DNA from: an uncultured Bacillota bacterium
GTDB taxonomy: Bacteria > Bacillota_I > Bacilli_A > Erysipelotrichales > Erysipelotrichaceae
Direction: 5' to 3'
Length of the DNA stretch: 20,807 nucleotides
NCBI GenBank assembly: GCA_900321955.1
Contig: ONXX01000003.1
Span: 1 to 20,807, forward strand
Every line of letters begins with the position of its first letter. The first letter of the stretch is position 1. The notes below the pieces were generated by a model that saw only the letters and a list, made by a program, of their open reading frames with translations, did not search any database and was not told the DNA's origin. Made by a program: the position numbers and the translations under genes. This document shows positions 7,494-15,836 of this stretch, piece by piece.

Positions 7494-7622
7494 ATGAACG
7501 CTGTATGTGGAAATGCATATGCCGTAAAAGGCTTTCTTCAGCTGAGTCTTGCACTGAGCGGTCAAAAATTTTTTTCTGCCGATAAGTTGCCGTTTTTTCT
7601 TTGCCCGGAGGCAAAGAGATGA
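7494..7622 (+). CDS. Putative leader ORF translationally coupled to atpI
   Basis: A 42-codon ORF beginning MNAVCGNAYAVKGFLQ and ending LCPEAKR. It is preceded by GGAGG (7485-7489), four bases before the ATG. Its TGA stop (7620-7622) overlaps the atpI ATG (7619-7621) as ATGA. The peptide has no recognised family, no clear membrane helix and two cysteines. Its last codons run through the hairpin that hides the atpI ribosome binding site, so its most likely role is cis-acting: ribosomes translating it would open the hairpin and re-initiate on atpI. A still shorter ATG (7471), an eight-codon ORF, overlaps its start in the same ATGA manner. Whether the peptide itself has a function is unknown. Confidence 0.5.
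   Translation: MNAVCGNAYAVKGFLQLSLALSGQKFFSADKLPFFLCPEAKR
7599..7616 (+). promoter_or_regulatory. Hairpin sequestering the atpI ribosome binding site
   Basis: A perfect 7-bp stem, CTTTGCC (7599-7605) with GGCAAAG (7610-7616), and a CGGA loop. The GGAGG of atpI (7607-7611) lies in the loop and the 3' arm, so initiation at the ATG at 7619 should be weak unless the hairpin is melted by a ribosome on the leader ORF. Confidence 0.6.
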
Positions 7623-7972
7623 AGCTGAGAATCTATCTGATCACTGCCGCCATTGCGCTTATCCTGGCGGTCTGCGGCTGGTTCATCGATCCCAAGATCT
7701 CCTATGGACTTCTTTTGTCGGCATGCAGCTCTTTGGTAAACATATTGCTGCTGACAATATCGATGAAATCGGCGATCGGAACGGAAACCGTAAATTACGC
7801 CGCACTGATGACCGGCAATATCCTGCGTTTCGGGATCCTGCTGGCGGTGATCTTTGTGGCTGTTAAGAATCCGCAGTACTTCAACATGATCGGCGTGGCT
7901 GTCGGATTTACATTATTTTTTATCGCATTGCTGATCGATGCGTTAAGCAGAAAGAGGAGGAAAACGGTATGA
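7619..7972 (+). CDS. atpI: ATP synthase subunit I-like membrane protein
   Basis: A 117-residue protein with four predicted membrane segments (about residues 5-22, 27-46, 62-82 and 89-107) in the position of atpI, directly before atpB. AtpI proteins assist c-ring or a/c assembly and are poorly conserved, so the call rests on size, topology and position. The ATG at 7619 is chosen over the TTG at 7601 because GGAGG (7607-7611) is seven bases upstream and the ATG overlaps the leader ORF stop. The end overlaps atpB as ATGA (7969-7972). Expression is probably controlled by the hairpin around its ribosome binding site. Confidence 0.75.
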   Translation: MKLRIYLITAAIALILAVCGWFIDPKISYGLLLSACSSLVNILLLTISMKSAIGTETVNYAALMTGNILRFGILLAVIFVAVKNPQYFNMIGVAVGFTLFFIALLIDALSRKRRKTV

Positions 7973-8649
7973 AACTACAGACAACGGTCTTTACCGTAGC
8001 GATCGTGACGATCTTCATGGCTGCCGTTCTTTTCTATATCAATAAGAAACTGAAGGAGTTTGATCCCTTGAGTGAACCAAAGGGCATCGTCCTTCTGGTC
8101 ATCATGTATGCGGAAATGATCGACAACATGGTCAAAGGAAAGACCAACGAGCGGGTCGCCCGTTATCTGACTCCCTACATCATGACGGTGGCTGCCTACA
8201 TCTTCCTGTGCAACATTTCAGGTCTCTTCGCCCTGGAGACACCGACGTCCAATCTGTCGGTCACCCTGGTGCTGGCGGCTGTGACCTGCATCCTGATCGA
8301 AGTCTATTCGGCAAAGGAAAGAGGCACCAAGGGCTACATCAAATCCTGGTTTGAACCGTTTGCCCCGTTTGTCATTCTGAATGTCATGTCGAAGTTCTCG
8401 ACCCTGTTGTCGCTCTCGCTTCGTCTGTTCGGCAACATCCTTTCCGGCGGTATCTTAATGTCGGTCATCTACCAGATGCTGGGTTCGATCTCCAAGATGA
8501 TTCCGCTGATCGGCAAGTTCAATATCTTCGGGGTGGTCATTGCCCCGGTCCTGCATTTCTACTTTGACTTATTCTCAGGTGTCATGCAGGCATTCATCTT
8601 TATCACGTTAACGATCTCATTCATAGGCAAGGAATTGCCTAATAAATAA
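7969..8649 (+). CDS. atpB: F-type ATP synthase subunit a
   Basis: A 226-residue membrane subunit of the F0 stator that forms the ion half-channels against the c-ring. The essential arginine is present as Arg152 in LSLRLFGNILSGG, corresponding to E. coli Arg210. The C-terminal helix pair (IAPVLHFYFDLFSGVMQAFIFITLTISFI) is typical. The length matches the short a subunits of Firmicutes. It overlaps atpI by four bases and is followed after 19 bases by atpE with its own GAGGAGG site. Confidence 0.95.
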   Translation: MKLQTTVFTVAIVTIFMAAVLFYINKKLKEFDPLSEPKGIVLLVIMYAEMIDNMVKGKTNERVARYLTPYIMTVAAYIFLCNISGLFALETPTSNLSVTLVLAAVTCILIEVYSAKERGTKGYIKSWFEPFAPFVILNVMSKFSTLLSLSLRLFGNILSGGILMSVIYQMLGSISKMIPLIGKFNIFGVVIAPVLHFYFDLFSGVMQAFIFITLTISFIGKELPNK

Positions 8650-8668: not shown

Positions 8669-8899
8669 ATGGAAAAAGCGTTAATGGCATTTGCAGCAGC
8701 ACTTTGTGTTTGCGGCGGTTGTGTCACAGGTATCATGGAAGGCAAGGTTGCTGTCCAGGCTGTCGAGTCGATCGGCAAGAACCCGGATGCGGCCGATAAG
8801 ATCCAGTCTATGGCTATCGTCGGTGCTGCGATTTCCGAAACATGTGCTATTTACTGTCTGCTTGTCGCTTTCCTGATTATCTTTATCTTAGGAGCATAA
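8669..8899 (+). CDS. atpE: F-type ATP synthase subunit c, two-carboxylate type
   Basis: A 76-residue hairpin of two membrane helices that forms the rotor ring. The ion-binding glutamate is Glu57 in helix 2 (AAISETCAIYCLL), followed by Thr58 and Tyr62. The polar loop KNPDA matches the usual RQP. In helix 1, aligning on AVES puts Glu24 at the position of Gln32 of Ilyobacter, where Fusobacterium nucleatum has Glu32 in its two-carboxylate Na+ rotor. Na+ coupling is therefore likely but inferred. Odd features are five cysteines (13, 15, 18, 59, 63) and a reduced glycine pattern in helix 1, where most c subunits have GxGxGxG. A strong GAGGAGG site upstream fits the high copy number of c. Confidence 0.93.
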   Translation: MEKALMAFAAALCVCGGCVTGIMEGKVAVQAVESIGKNPDAADKIQSMAIVGAAISETCAIYCLLVAFLIIFILGA

Positions 8900-8900
8900 G

Positions 8901-9410
8901 ATGAATATCGTAGATATTCTGGAACTCCTTGTCCCGGATGTCTGGACAGCCCTGACCCAGCTTTGTGCGACAGCACTGCTGTTTTTCCTGATGTACAAGC
9001 TGGCCTGGAAACCGGTCAAGAAGATCCTGGACGAAAGAAGCAAGTTTGAACAGCAGAAGCTTTCCGAAGCTGCCGCTCTCAAGGAAGAGAACGAAAAGAT
9101 CCACGAACAGGCCAAGGATATCATTTCCGATGCCAACCGTTCGGCGGAAGCGATCGTCAAGGATGCCCGCGACGAGGGTCAGACCATCAAGAACGAGCTG
9201 ATCGAAGAAGGGAAGAAGCAGTCTGCCCAGCTTCTGGAAAACGCAAGACACGACATGGAACTGCAGCGCACCAAGATGATGGAAGAGATGCGTTCCGAGA
9301 TCGTCGATACCGCTATTACGGCTGCCGAAAAAGTCCTCGAAAGCAAGATCGATTCCGATGCCGAGAAACAGAGCATCAACTCTTTTGTCAAGGAAGTGAT
9401 CAATAAATGA
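8901..9410 (+). CDS. atpF: F-type ATP synthase subunit b
   Basis: A 169-residue peripheral stalk subunit: one membrane helix (about residues 14-35), then a long charged amphipathic helix rich in Glu, Lys and Ala that dimerises and reaches up to delta. The [18 protein letters not shown] segment after the membrane helix is the family signature. It begins one base after the atpE stop, with AGGAG (8890-8894) upstream, and ends overlapping the next gene as ATGA. Length is usual. Its partner at the top of F1 is the delta half of the downstream fusion protein. Confidence 0.95.
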
Positions 9411-11467
9411 ACGTCCGTATCAGTACTTATGCAAGAAGGCTGATGGAACTGGTCACGCAGGAAGATCTGATCGATGTCTGCTACAAGGATCTCAAAGAGA
9501 TCAATGACGAGATCAACAGCGATGAGGAACTGCTGAAGTTCATCACCTCTGCCGACAAGAGCATTGATGAGAAAAAGGCCAGACTCCAGGAGATTTTTGA
9601 AAACGATCTGGATGAAGCCGTGCTTCATGCCTTTTTTCTTGTCGTCGAACAGATCCCGCGCAAACATATGGAAGCCGAACTCATCCATGAGTTCCTTTCT
9701 TACTATTACCGGACCAGGGGCATCGTTTTCGGCGCTGCCTATTCGGCCAGAAAAATTGCGGAAGGCGATCTGCTGATCCTGGAAGATGCCTTCTCCAAAA
9801 AGCTTGCACAGCGGATCAAACTGGAAAACAAGGTGGATCCGTCTTTGCTTGGCGGCGTCAAGGTCATCATCAACGATACGGTCTGGGACGGCACCTACCG
9901 TTCCAAGATCAACGATCTGCGGAGTGCGCTTCTTAATGTTGAACTCGACGAGAATTCTTCCGATCTGGGTCTTGACCTGGAAAACGAAGTCAAAGAATAC
10001 AAGCTCGATCCGATCCGGACTGATTCCAATCAGACGACCGGTTATGTCACTTCGATCGCCGATGGTGTTGCCAACATCAGCGGCATCTATCAGGCGATGG
10101 CCGGTGAGCTGCTCAATATCGGCGAAACCAAGGCCATGGTCATGGACCTGGAAGAAGACAACATCGCTGCCGTTCTTTTGGGCAACGACAAGGATATCGT
10201 CAAGGGTACCCAGGTTTCTTCGACCGGCAAGGTCGTGGAAGTTCCGGTCGGCGATGAACTGTTAGGAAGAGTTGTCGATGCCTTGGGCCGTCCGATCGAC
10301 GGCAAGGGCGTTATCAAGACGACGGAAACCAGACAGATCGAAGTTGCTGCGCCGGGTGTTATCGACCGCAGCCCGGTCAACGAACCTTTACAGACCGGTA
10401 TCAAGATCATCGACTCGATGATCCCGATCGGCAAGGGTCAGCGTGAGCTGATCATCGGTGACCGCCAGACCGGCAAGACGGCGATCGCCATCGATACGAT
10501 CATCAACCAGCGCGGCAGAAACGTGAAGTGTATCTATGTCGCCATCGGTCAGAAGAACTCGACGGTCGCCCAGATCATTGAAAAACTCAACAGCTACGGT
10601 TCCATGGCCTACACGACGGTCGTCGTGGCCGGTGCCAGCGAACTGGCTTCCTTACAGTACATTGCGCCATACTCAGGCTGTACGATCGGTGAATACTGGA
10701 TGTCCAAAGGGGAAGACGTTCTGATCATTTACGACGATCTTTCCAAACATGCGGTCGCTTACCGTACCCTGTCCTTATTATTAAGGAGGCCTCCGGGAAG
10801 AGAAGCCTTCCCTGGTGATGTCTTCTACCTGCATTCAAGACTGCTGGAAAGAAGCGGCAAGCTTTCAAAGCGTCTGGGTGAAGGAAGCTTAACCGCGCTT
10901 CCGATCATCGAAACGCAGGCGGGTGATATCTCCGCTTACATTCCGACAAACGTCATTTCCATCACGGACGGACAGATCTTCCTTCAGACGGAAATGTTCA
11001 ACTCCGGCATTCGTCCGGCCATCGATTACGGTCTTTCCGTATCGCGTGTCGGTTCGTCTGCCCAGATCAAGGCAATGAAGAAAGCCTCTTCCTCTTTGAA
11101 ACTGGATCTTTCCCAGTATCAGGAAGTGCTGGATTTTGCCCAGTTTGGTTCTGACCTGGATCCTTCGACCAGAGCCCGTATCAATCACGGTTCCCATCTG
11201 GTGGAAATGTTGAAACAGCCGCAGTACGCGCCAATGTCCACTGCCGATCAGATCATCCTCTTGCTGGCCGGGAAGCTCAATCTCCTCGATGAGATCCCGC
11301 TCAATGAGATCAAGGAATATGAAGAAGAGCTGCTGAAAGAAATGAACAGTGTACACCGCGATCTGATGGAAGAGATCGAAACCAAAAAAGACATCGACGA
11401 GGAGCTGATGGAAAAGCTCACGTCGACGATAACGGTATTTACAACGAGATTTAAATTAATTGAATAA
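9407..11467 (+). CDS. atpHA: Fused ATP synthase delta-alpha subunit
   Basis: One 686-residue frame joins two normally separate F1 subunits. Residues 1 to about 176 are a full-length delta/OSCP subunit: N-terminal helical bundle, then [21 protein letters not shown] (from 148), the usual delta C-terminal signature. After a short linker (about 177-184), a helix (about 185-205) resembles the N-terminal alpha helix that normally docks on delta. From 212 ([13 protein letters not shown]) the protein is alpha through to 686. It has the P-loop GDRQTGKT (351-358), conserved [14 protein letters not shown] (458-471) and arginine finger Arg547 in [10 protein letters not shown]. No ATG, GTG or TTG and no ribosome binding site occur in frame at the junction. 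It overlaps atpF as ATGA. Delta should be one per F1 and alpha three, so either extra delta domains are tolerated or the product is cleaved. Confidence 0.93.
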
Positions 11468-11470
11468 ACT

Positions 11471-13718
<2,248 letters not shown>

Positions 13719-13719
<1 letters not shown>

Positions 13720-14132
13720 TGAAATTCAAGACCGATCTGATCACCTATGAAGGGATCTATCGCACCATTGAAACGGAGAAGCTGAATCTGCCGACTTCGG
13801 AAGGAAGAAGGACGATCCTGGCCAATCACATGCCGCTCATGATGCCTTTGCAGGTAGGGGTCATCGAAACTATGGAAAACGGGGAGCTGAAGCATTATGC
13901 GATCAACGGCGGTGTCCTGTATTTCAAGGACAATATCGCCGAGATCGTTGCCGATTCGATCCTGGATGTTGCGGAGATCGATATCGATGCGGCATTAAAG
14001 GAAAAGGCCAAGGAAGAAGAAAAACTGGCCAATGCCAGAAGAGAAAACGAGCGGATACGTGCTTTGAACCGTCTGGAGGTTGCCGACAACCTCATCCGGG
14101 CAAAAGAAAGATATCTGGACAAGAAGAACTGA
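13719..14132 (+). CDS. atpC: F-type ATP synthase subunit epsilon
   Basis: A 137-residue subunit: N-terminal beta-sandwich (residues 1-85, with TILANHMPLMMPLQVGVIE, the usual GxxxxLxxHxP-like region) and a C-terminal helical hairpin (about 92-137, rich in Lys, Glu and Arg). It attaches to gamma and the c-ring and can inhibit ATP hydrolysis through the helical hairpin. It is the last gene of the operon; its stop overlaps the first base of the terminator stem. Confidence 0.95.
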
Positions 14133-14219: not shown

Positions 14220-15836
14220 ATGATCACGAATATCGTCCTTGTTGTTTCTCTGGTGATCCTGCTTTGTGTCATCACCGAGAAATTCTCATATAAGATCGGC
14301 GTTCCGGCTCTGATCTTTTTCATGTTTATCGGCATGCTGTTTGGTTCGGACGGCTTGATGAAGATCGAATATGAAAATTTCAAACAGGCTGAGATGATCT
14401 GTTCGATTGCCTTGATCTTCATCATGTTCAATGGCGGTTTCAATACCAACTGGAAACATGCCAGACCCTATGTGGGCAAAGCGATCATGTTGTCATCGGT
14501 CGGCGTCTTTCTGACAGCGATGATCACCATGGTCTGCTGTCACTACCTTTTAAAGCTTTCATTCCAGGAAAGCTTTCTCTTGTCGGCAGTACTGGCCTCC
14601 ACCGATGCGGCCAGCGTCTTCTCGATCTTAAAATCCAACAACCTTGATCTCAAGGACGGCACGTCTTCCATACTGGAAGTGGAATCGGGAAGCAACGACC
14701 CGATGGCTTATCTGCTTACGATCACCGCCATCTCGATCATGTCGTCCGGCAAGATGGGCAATCTGTTTCTGACTATCACGGCCCAGCTGGTCGTCGGTTT
14801 AGGCATGGGCCTGGCTTTTGCCTACATCAGCAAGTACACTCTTTCCAAAAAGAACATCATTGCCGATGGCCTCGATGTCATCTTCATCCTGGCGGCGGTC
14901 ATGTTATGTTACGGTGTTTCCGATCGGCTTGGCGGCAATGCCTACCTCTCGGTCTATCTGATGGGTTTACTGTTAGGCAATACCCGAATGAATTCCAAGC
15001 GGCCGATCATTGCCTTTTTCAACGAACTGACTTCTTTACTACAGATCCTGATCTTCTTTATCATCGGTCTCTTAAGTTTCCCGCACTCGATGCCCAAGAC
15101 GATGCCTTTGGCATTTGCAGTCGTCGCCATACTGACTTTCGTGGCCCGTCCTTTGATGACGATCGTCCTCTTGATGCCTTTGAAGTGTTCTTTGCGTCAG
15201 TGTCTTCTGATTGCCTGGGCGGGTTTACGAGGCGCTTCTTCGATCGTTTTTGCCATCGTTGCCGTTTCTTCCGGCATTCATTTGAGTTTTGATATCTTCC
15301 ACGTGGTCTTTTTGGTTTCCTTATTCTCGATCGCCATACAGGGAGCACTGTTGCCAACCATGTCCAAGAAACTGGATATGATCGAAAAGAATGCCAACAT
15401 CATGAAGACCTTCAACGATTACGAAGAAAGCATCGACTTCCAGTTTGCCAAGCTCCATATTGAAAAGGACAACGAGTGGGTCGGCAAGCGTATCGACAAG
15501 ATTGATGTGCCATTGGGTTCGCAAGCCATCATGATCCGCCGCAATGGCAAATCATTGGCGGCCAGAGGCAAGAGCCTGATCAAGGCAAATGATGATCTGA
15601 TCTTAAACGTACCAGCCTATTATCCTTCCGGCACCGAAGAGGTTTCCGAGGTTTCGGTCTATAAGGGCCACAAGTGGGCGAATAAGACGGTGGCCGAGCT
15701 CAATCTGCCGGTCTCCCAGCTGATCATCATGGTGATACGAAACGGCAAAAAGTTCATCCCGAACGGCGATACGCTGATCAAGGAAGATGATGTCTTACTG
15801 ATATTTAATGGTGAGGAACAAGAAAACGCACAGTGA
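14220..15836 (+). CDS. nhaP2: NhaP2-type K+/H+ antiporter with two RCK_C (TrkA-C) domains
   Basis: A 538-residue CPA1-family cation/proton antiporter. About twelve membrane helices (residues 1-385) include ASTDAASVF (126-134) and the ESGSNDP motif (155-161), whose Asn159-Asp160 pair and Asp129 are expected ion-binding or gating residues. Two tandem RCK_C/TrkA-C-like domains follow. The first ends near DDLILNV. The second starts near VSVYKGHKWANKTVAEL and ends DDVLLIFNG; in related K+ transporters such domains bind regulatory ligands. The start is supported by TAGGAGGA eight bases upstream. It stands alone between two terminators. It probably expels K+ (or Na+) in exchange for H+, making it a natural companion of an ATP synthase in a fermenting cell, but there is no operon link. 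Confidence 0.88.
   Translation: MITNIVLVVSLVILLCVITEKFSYKIGVPALIFFMFIGMLFGSDGLMKIEYENFKQAEMICSIALIFIMFNGGFNTNWKHARPYVGKAIMLSSVGVFLTAMITMVCCHYLLKLSFQESFLLSAVLASTDAASVFSILKSNNLDLKDGTSSILEVESGSNDPMAYLLTITAISIMSSGKMGNLFLTITAQLVVGLGMGLAFAYISKYTLSKKNIIADGLDVIFILAAVMLCYGVSDRLGGNAYLSVYLMGLLLGNTRMNSKRPIIAFFNELTSLLQILIFFIIGLLSFPHSMPKTMPLAFAVVAILTFVARPLMTIVLLMPLKCSLRQCLLIAWAGLRGASSIVFAIVAVSSGIHLSFDIFHVVFLVSLFSIAIQGALLPTMSKKLDMIEKNANIMKTFNDYEESIDFQFAKLHIEKDNEWVGKRIDKIDVPLGSQAIMIRRNGKSLAARGKSLIKANDDLILNVPAYYPSGTEEVSEVSVYKGHKWANKTVAELNLPVSQLIIMVIRNGKKFIPNGDTLIKEDDVLLIFNGEEQENAQ

Follow-up and report, generated by a model that had tools for sequence, protein, structure and literature searches.

The delta and alpha subunits of F-type ATP synthase are joined in one polypeptide in a clade of Erysipelotrichaceae, and this fusion is real and not an artefact. 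The analysis started from a stretch of 20,807 nucleotides (here called the window; contig ONXX01000003.1 of an uncultured Bacillota bacterium). From the sequence comparisons described below, we consider it probable that the fusion arose in a single event in the ancestor of the clade and that its product stays uncleaved, in which case each F1 would carry three delta domains, one on each alpha N-terminus. A peptide tether would then take the place of the non-covalent joint between the groove of the delta N-terminal domain (NTD) and the N-terminal helix of alpha, and the delta C-terminal domain (CTD) would grip the b2 stalk as usual, through the canonical contact of delta-CTD with b. The original prediction of three deltas per enzyme thus stands as a deduction from the fusion.

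The fused ORF (9407-11467, + strand) begins with ATG and runs for 686 codons, with no internal stop. When the 686-residue protein was searched against Pfam, the OSCP family (PF00213) matched residues 7-175 over profile positions 4-172 (94.1 bits, cut-off 22.3), which is the whole length of the family and includes both the NTD and the CTD. The alpha domains follow in the order barrel (209-274), nucleotide-binding domain (331-546) and C-domain (553-676), and the NCBIfam equivalog for atpA, TIGR00962, matched residues 192-682 with 758.5 bits against a cut-off of 484.45. The reading frame and the family matches agree in upholding the original prediction of a single 686-codon frame with a complete delta followed by alpha; delta in the window is not a separate subunit, but shares its frame with alpha, the delta-CTD being fused to the alpha N-terminus. 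The conserved N-terminal docking helix of unfused relatives (EISxLIKxQI type) is strongly decayed in the fused alpha; the hydrophobic spacing is partly kept. The operon is otherwise ordinary, comprising atpI, a, c, b, delta-alpha, gamma, beta and epsilon, of which c and beta were recognised from their place in the operon and their sequence (Table 1); the canonical order is a-c-b-delta-alpha-gamma-beta-epsilon.

Table 1. Features of the atp operon in the window (window positions), and loci of second operons with a delta-CTD-alpha fusion
Feature	Positions	Strand	Basis
atpI	7601..7972	+	PF03899
atpB (a subunit)	7969..8649	+	PF00119
atpE (c subunit, 76 aa)	8669..8899	+	Position between a and b, and hairpin sequence
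atpF (b subunit)	8901..9410	+	PF00430, TIGR01144; stop overlaps fusion start (ATGA)
Delta/OSCP N-terminal domain (residues about 1-104)	9407..9718	+	Pfam OSCP 7-175; border placed at residue 105, the first residue matched by chain 9jc1_I, an engineered delta-CTD-alpha protein
Delta/OSCP C-terminal (b-binding) domain (residues about 105-176)	9719..9934	+	Pfam OSCP to 175; aligned with PDB 9jc1_I 2-73; b binding from literature
Variable linker (residues about 177-186)	9935..9964	+	27-37 residues between delta end and alpha barrel anchor in fused rows
Putative remnant of the N-terminal helix by which alpha docks delta (residues about 187-205)	9965..10021	+	Alignment to the EISALIKEQI-type sequence found in unfused relatives
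Alpha subunit body (barrel, nucleotide-binding domain, C-terminal domain) and stop codon	10022..11467	+	PF02874, PF00006, PF00306, TIGR00962
atpG (gamma)	11471..12328	+	PF00231
atpD (beta)	12325..13719	+	Position and sequence; as query matched beta genes of related operons
atpC (epsilon)	13719..14132	+	PF02823
Second-operon delta-CTD-alpha loci: L047 (G119), L103 (G173), L104 (G170), L105 (G174), L106 (G177)

The c subunit of the window has a glutamate in each helix, E24 in GIMEGK and E57 in SETCAIY. We take this two-carboxylate motif to be like Na+ motifs, and it hints at Na+ coupling. The same two-glutamate pattern is present in c sequences of 26 fused loci, which were picked by motif and are biased toward the pattern. 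Just downstream of the atp operon, at 14220-15836, lies a gene for a Na+/H+-exchanger-type antiporter with a TrkA-C domain. Two-carboxylate c-rings, which the window c subunit resembles, are mentioned in PMC5376962.

We then determined how widely the fusion occurs. A protein search with residues 1-215 returned 55 relatives, every one listed with OSCP and alpha domains and 49 of them 674-688 residues long; one of these, P0002, is 99% identical to the window protein over residues 1-215 and represents 94 member sequences. With the protein of locus L012 as query, 13 relatives were obtained, all with both domains, and those with a name were designated Erysipelotrichaceae bacterium. In genome contigs, 21 loci were located, comprising 15 with one open frame (L001-L015, L014 ending at a contig edge), five with delta and alpha as separate genes (L016-L020), and one weak and partial match (L021). 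Among 272 genomes searched in the family of G001, 250 had a delta match, and 39 of these had a fused delta-alpha frame as counted by side-by-side reading of the lists of search matches, not by script. The frame is intact in 33 of the 39 (683-703 codons) and cut by a contig end in six (L014 and five of 24 further genomes). Genome G073 has a separate delta of 185 residues. Of 296 genomes sampled across the class, those with an unbroken frame as long as the fusion were, among the matches listed, G001 and G243, which belong to the same clade, and G277 and G289.

The original prediction had directed attention both to relatives with the same fusion and to a separate atpH or atpA elsewhere in the genome. 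Relatives with the fusion were found in numbers, and the fused genomes tested showed no separate copies. Each of the 39 fused genomes has exactly one delta (OSCP) match, which excludes a hidden separate delta, and all 15 fused genomes tested for alpha have exactly one over the cut-off (in G014, the gene is split across two contigs), excluding a hidden separate alpha in these. Extra a or b genes were likewise excluded in the 20 fused genomes tested, all of which have one of each over the cut-off.

The distribution of the fusion was mapped onto a tree of 92 alpha sequences, made by a quick method without bootstrap. The 39 fused rows (the window and 38 loci) lie on one side of a branch with an SH-aLRT value of 99 and with no unfused row among them, and the fused or unfused label requires one change on the tree for the window clade. 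Locus L039 (G235) is also fused, yet its sequence was not long enough to be placed in the tree. L084, which is unfused, is sister to the fused clade; it sits on a long branch, and its alpha helix looks canonical. The alpha start of most unfused relatives lies at about -28 relative to the barrel anchor, and the delta stop either overlaps this start or lies at most 20 bases away; in several, the two genes are in the same frame. Loss of a stop and a start could therefore fuse delta and alpha genes that abut in one frame, and we infer that the delta stop and the alpha start were lost in this manner where the two genes abut in the operon.

We compared the conservation of each domain between pairs of sequences with similar alpha identity, using 34 of the 39 fused rows (L014, L023, L032, L045 and L046, cut by contig ends, were left out) and 34 unfused rows. 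Omitted from the 45 unfused rows of the tree were L050, L096, L084 and L044, three rows having no usable delta match, and L051, L080, L099 and L101, which were mis-joined. In the bin with alpha identity of 0.70-0.75, holding 279 fused and 184 unfused pairs that are not independent of one another, the identity of the delta NTD was 0.345 in fused versus 0.271 in unfused pairs, and that of the delta CTD was 0.467 versus 0.320. The opposite was seen for the junction (residues 177-208), the least conserved region compared, with 0.168 in fused versus 0.470 in unfused pairs. The three other bins of alpha identity gave the same direction for the NTD, the CTD and the junction. In the 0.70-0.75 bin, the alpha barrel also had lower identity in fused than in unfused pairs (0.558 versus 0.622), and the loosening therefore partly extends past the docking helix. 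The dN/dS ratios of 12 fused pairs ranged from 0.019 to 0.395 for the NTD and from 0.010 to 0.333 for the CTD, rough values as many dS were near or above 1. By these measures, purifying selection acts on both delta domains, which are therefore not passengers.

The NTD of bovine OSCP binds residues 6-17 of alpha through its helices 1 and 5, mainly by hydrophobic contacts (PMC4057687). The docking regions were matched to the bovine protein by sequence alignment, and residues were counted in 37 of the 39 fused rows, L045 and L046 having no delta N-terminus. In the delta NTD, position 11 is small in all 34 unfused rows but in only 5 of 37 fused rows, and position 75 is a large hydrophobic residue in 33 of 34 unfused and none of the fused rows. 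In the alpha helix, position 190 is hydrophobic in 32 of 34 unfused but in 3 of 37 fused rows, and over an ungapped stretch of 14 residues of the helix, mean pairwise identity was 0.208 for the 39 fused compared to 0.518 for the 34 unfused rows. Helix positions 187, 191 and 195 mostly keep their hydrophobic class in the fused rows (0.92, 1.00 and 1.00), and some helix contact may therefore persist. Conserved positions that were lost are weakly enriched in the docking regions (Fisher p of 0.030 or 0.105 by threshold, with both regions and thresholds picked post hoc), and positions 101 and 138, outside these regions, were lost just as completely. The flips of docking residues are probably one ancestral change and not 37 independent ones. 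As judged from these alignments, constraint on the alpha docking helix is much reduced, and in the delta-NTD groove some residues have flipped. The old docking joint seems to have given way to a peptide tether; in our reading, it became dispensable after the peptide bond linked delta to alpha.

If the fused polypeptide is assembled three times into each F1, the number of peripheral stalks becomes a question. In E. coli, the peripheral stalk touches all three alpha N-terminal helices, and does so asymmetrically (PMC5214741). Ueno et al. (2025; PMC12229609) argued that the delta NTD, which sits on the threefold axis, limits the Bacillus PS3 enzyme to one stalk; with the NTD removed and the delta-CTD fused to alpha, they reported 0, 1, 2 and 3 stalks in 15, 51, 26 and 8% of particles, and an H+/ATP ratio of 5.8. 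One central seat would presumably not hold three NTDs, and therefore either two of the deltas are spare, or the NTDs are set aside and there are more stalks. Both would be outcomes of the uncleaved three-delta enzyme that we prefer.

We slightly favor the first of these, if tentatively, in which one NTD would occupy the central seat, the other two deltas would be free, and the fusion would be near-neutral with a single stalk. The argument from the position of the NTD in PS3 (PMC12229609) is in keeping with this outcome, as are the purifying selection on the delta NTD, which has positions conserved in the fused clade only, and the single a and b genes in all 20 fused genomes tested. However, the canonical NTD groove and its alpha helix are partly changed, such that binding of the NTD in its old pose is not assured, and two wasted 20-kDa domains per enzyme, kept throughout the clade, need a reason. 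The second outcome, in which each alpha-borne delta-CTD would bind its own b2 and a to give as many as three stalks and raise the ion/ATP ratio, is a serious possibility, though we give it somewhat less weight. The same delta-CTD/alpha joint does yield up to three stalks and the raised H+/ATP ratio in PS3 (PMC12229609), the NTD-alpha docking pair is partly decayed in the window clade, and the delta-CTD is under stronger constraint than in unfused kin. Against this, the engineered PS3 enzyme has no NTD while the window clade retains it, and a and b are not duplicated, though duplication would not be needed. The fuller form of this second outcome, a natural multi-stalk F-ATPase with the NTD off its crown seat, an ion/ATP ratio about two- to threefold the usual and possibly Na+ coupling, we regard as rather unlikely.

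Less probable than either outcome is cleavage of a precursor in the linker, after synthesis or assembly, which would restore ordinary alpha and delta. No part of the protein varies more than the junction, which is probably exposed, so a protease could gain access. However, the linker sequence differs between fused rows, over a distance of 27-37 residues from the delta end to the barrel anchor, and no shared cleavage motif was seen by eye among them. A cut alpha would further be expected to need its docking helix, and yet the helix is the very part in which constraint has been lost. Cleavage after assembly, which the original prediction had offered as one option, is thus disfavored by the variability of the junction, and we consider it improbable.

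The original prediction also held that no start lies at the junction. Within the window there is no in-frame ATG, GTG or TTG between 45 residues ahead of the barrel anchor (residue 212) and 11 residues past it, and all 39 fused rows were scanned for these three codons by alignment. None was present from -32 to -6 in 24 rows, the window included; the other 15 have some such codon at differing positions, with ATG at -25 in L012, L013, L031 and L036. A Shine-Dalgarno run of at least 4 was found for none of these 15, versus 25 of 41 unfused alpha starts. A conserved internal start was accordingly rejected, and the prediction stands. Internal initiation could in principle also yield a separate alpha, such that fused and plain alphas would be mixed in each F1, and the 15 rows with a start codon, particularly the four with ATG at -25, lend it something; given the 24 rows with none of the three codons and the Shine-Dalgarno counts, we consider it highly improbable. 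Least likely of all, to the point of being negligible, is an assembly or sequencing artefact concealing a stop and a start: although 15 of the carriers are metagenome-assembled genomes, it is refuted by recurrence of the fusion in 39 genomes of different species, by the 94 member sequences behind P0002, and by the well-supported fused clade with unfused relatives outside it.

Further fusions of delta with alpha were encountered outside the window clade. Six genomes of the family (G119, G170, G172, G173, G174 and G177) have two F-ATPase operons, one with delta as a separate gene and a second in which alpha starts with a delta-CTD without the NTD. The match in G177 has one TAA in its frame in one scan, and the 580-residue ORF holding its OSCP match is open; a protein search with L047 gave one relative, 99% identical. 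In G172, the second-operon protein (L049:101-2380, - strand; 760 residues) has three tandem delta-CTD-like repeats before alpha, with 27/75, 29/74 and 35/72 identical columns in pairwise comparison, two of the three being scored by Pfam. This architecture could potentially place nine delta-CTDs on each enzyme. Nearly full delta-alpha proteins of 676 residues, with the OSCP profile matched from position 19, are encoded at L097:3175-5202 (+ strand; G289) and L098:3032-5059 (+ strand; G277), in operons with a long gamma of 306-307 residues. These two genomes also have a separate delta elsewhere, of 179 residues in G277 and 178 in G289. The eight extra fusions (the six of second operons, L097 and L098) are placed apart from the window clade in the alpha tree, and by that tree delta-alpha fusion therefore arose at least twice; a common origin of the window fusion and the second-operon fusions is rejected. 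The unfused L099 groups with L097 and L098 (support 84), apart from the other six, and we are unsure of the number of origins among the eight, which have long branches. Across a phylum sample of 392 genomes, at least five (G302, G373, G417, G481 and G511) have a delta-CTD-alpha-like frame of 577-599 codons, that of G481 being a read-through frame with a TAG. The separate fusions, one with tandem repeats, suggest that this route was taken more than once.

Three other unusual arrangements of delta were observed. Beside a divergent alpha in G157, a 349-residue protein (L050:2221-3267, + strand) has a hydrophobic segment at its N-terminus and an OSCP match at its C-terminus, with no PF00430 match, and may represent a second-operon fusion of b with delta like that of mycobacteria. 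A separate delta of 130 residues in G227 (L044:3411-3800, + strand), beside an unfused alpha, matches OSCP profile positions 84-172 only, most of the NTD missing. In L096 (G021), delta and gamma are each in two frames, the delta pieces having 139 and 59 codons, which represents either frameshifts or assembly errors.

The rule for F1 is a single delta, whose presence makes the head depart from threefold symmetry and permits a single stator stalk. In the fused clade, this rule would be broken in the gene itself, clade-wide, with the NTD that has been argued to enforce one stalk still there. The question is thereby raised of whether the ion/ATP ratio can be tuned by the number of a subunits, besides the size of the c-ring.

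Canonical FoF1 enzymes, such as those of Bacillus PS3 and E. coli, have the same subunit families and gene order as the window, but their delta is one separate subunit per enzyme. A delta/b fusion, termed a 'Rosetta Stone', is described from Gordonia and some Mycobacterium species (PMC5709465); there delta is joined to b, whereas the window delta is joined to alpha and b has an ORF of its own (8901-9410). The original prediction, which knew of no described delta-alpha fusion, has to be corrected on this point: Ueno et al. (2025) engineered one and noted a natural one in Acidaminococcus fermentans, also naming UniProt G4Q3K6 and A0A1I2C5T3 (PMC12229609). The natural fusion of A. fermentans lies in an atp operon, as in the window, but by the published description lacks the delta NTD, and for the full-length form that retains the NTD we found no description in the literature searched, a scope outside which fell most subscription papers and all preprints. 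The NTD-retaining fusion is thus a new variant relative to the delta-deltaN-alpha forms already described. Natural proteins resembling the engineered multi-stalk enzyme of PS3 are the delta-CTD-alpha fusions of L047 and L103-L106. In the engineered delta-deltaN-alpha FoF1 of PS3 (PDB 9JC1; PMC12229609), the delta C-terminus is likewise joined to the alpha N-terminus, and residues 105-678 of the window protein form a single alignment with its delta-CTD-alpha chain, 9jc1_I, solved by cryo-EM. The engineered protein is without the delta NTD and the window protein retains it, its OSCP match spanning residues 7-175, and the fused clade would therefore offer a test case from nature for the proposal of Ueno et al. 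(2025) that stalk number is set by the delta NTD.
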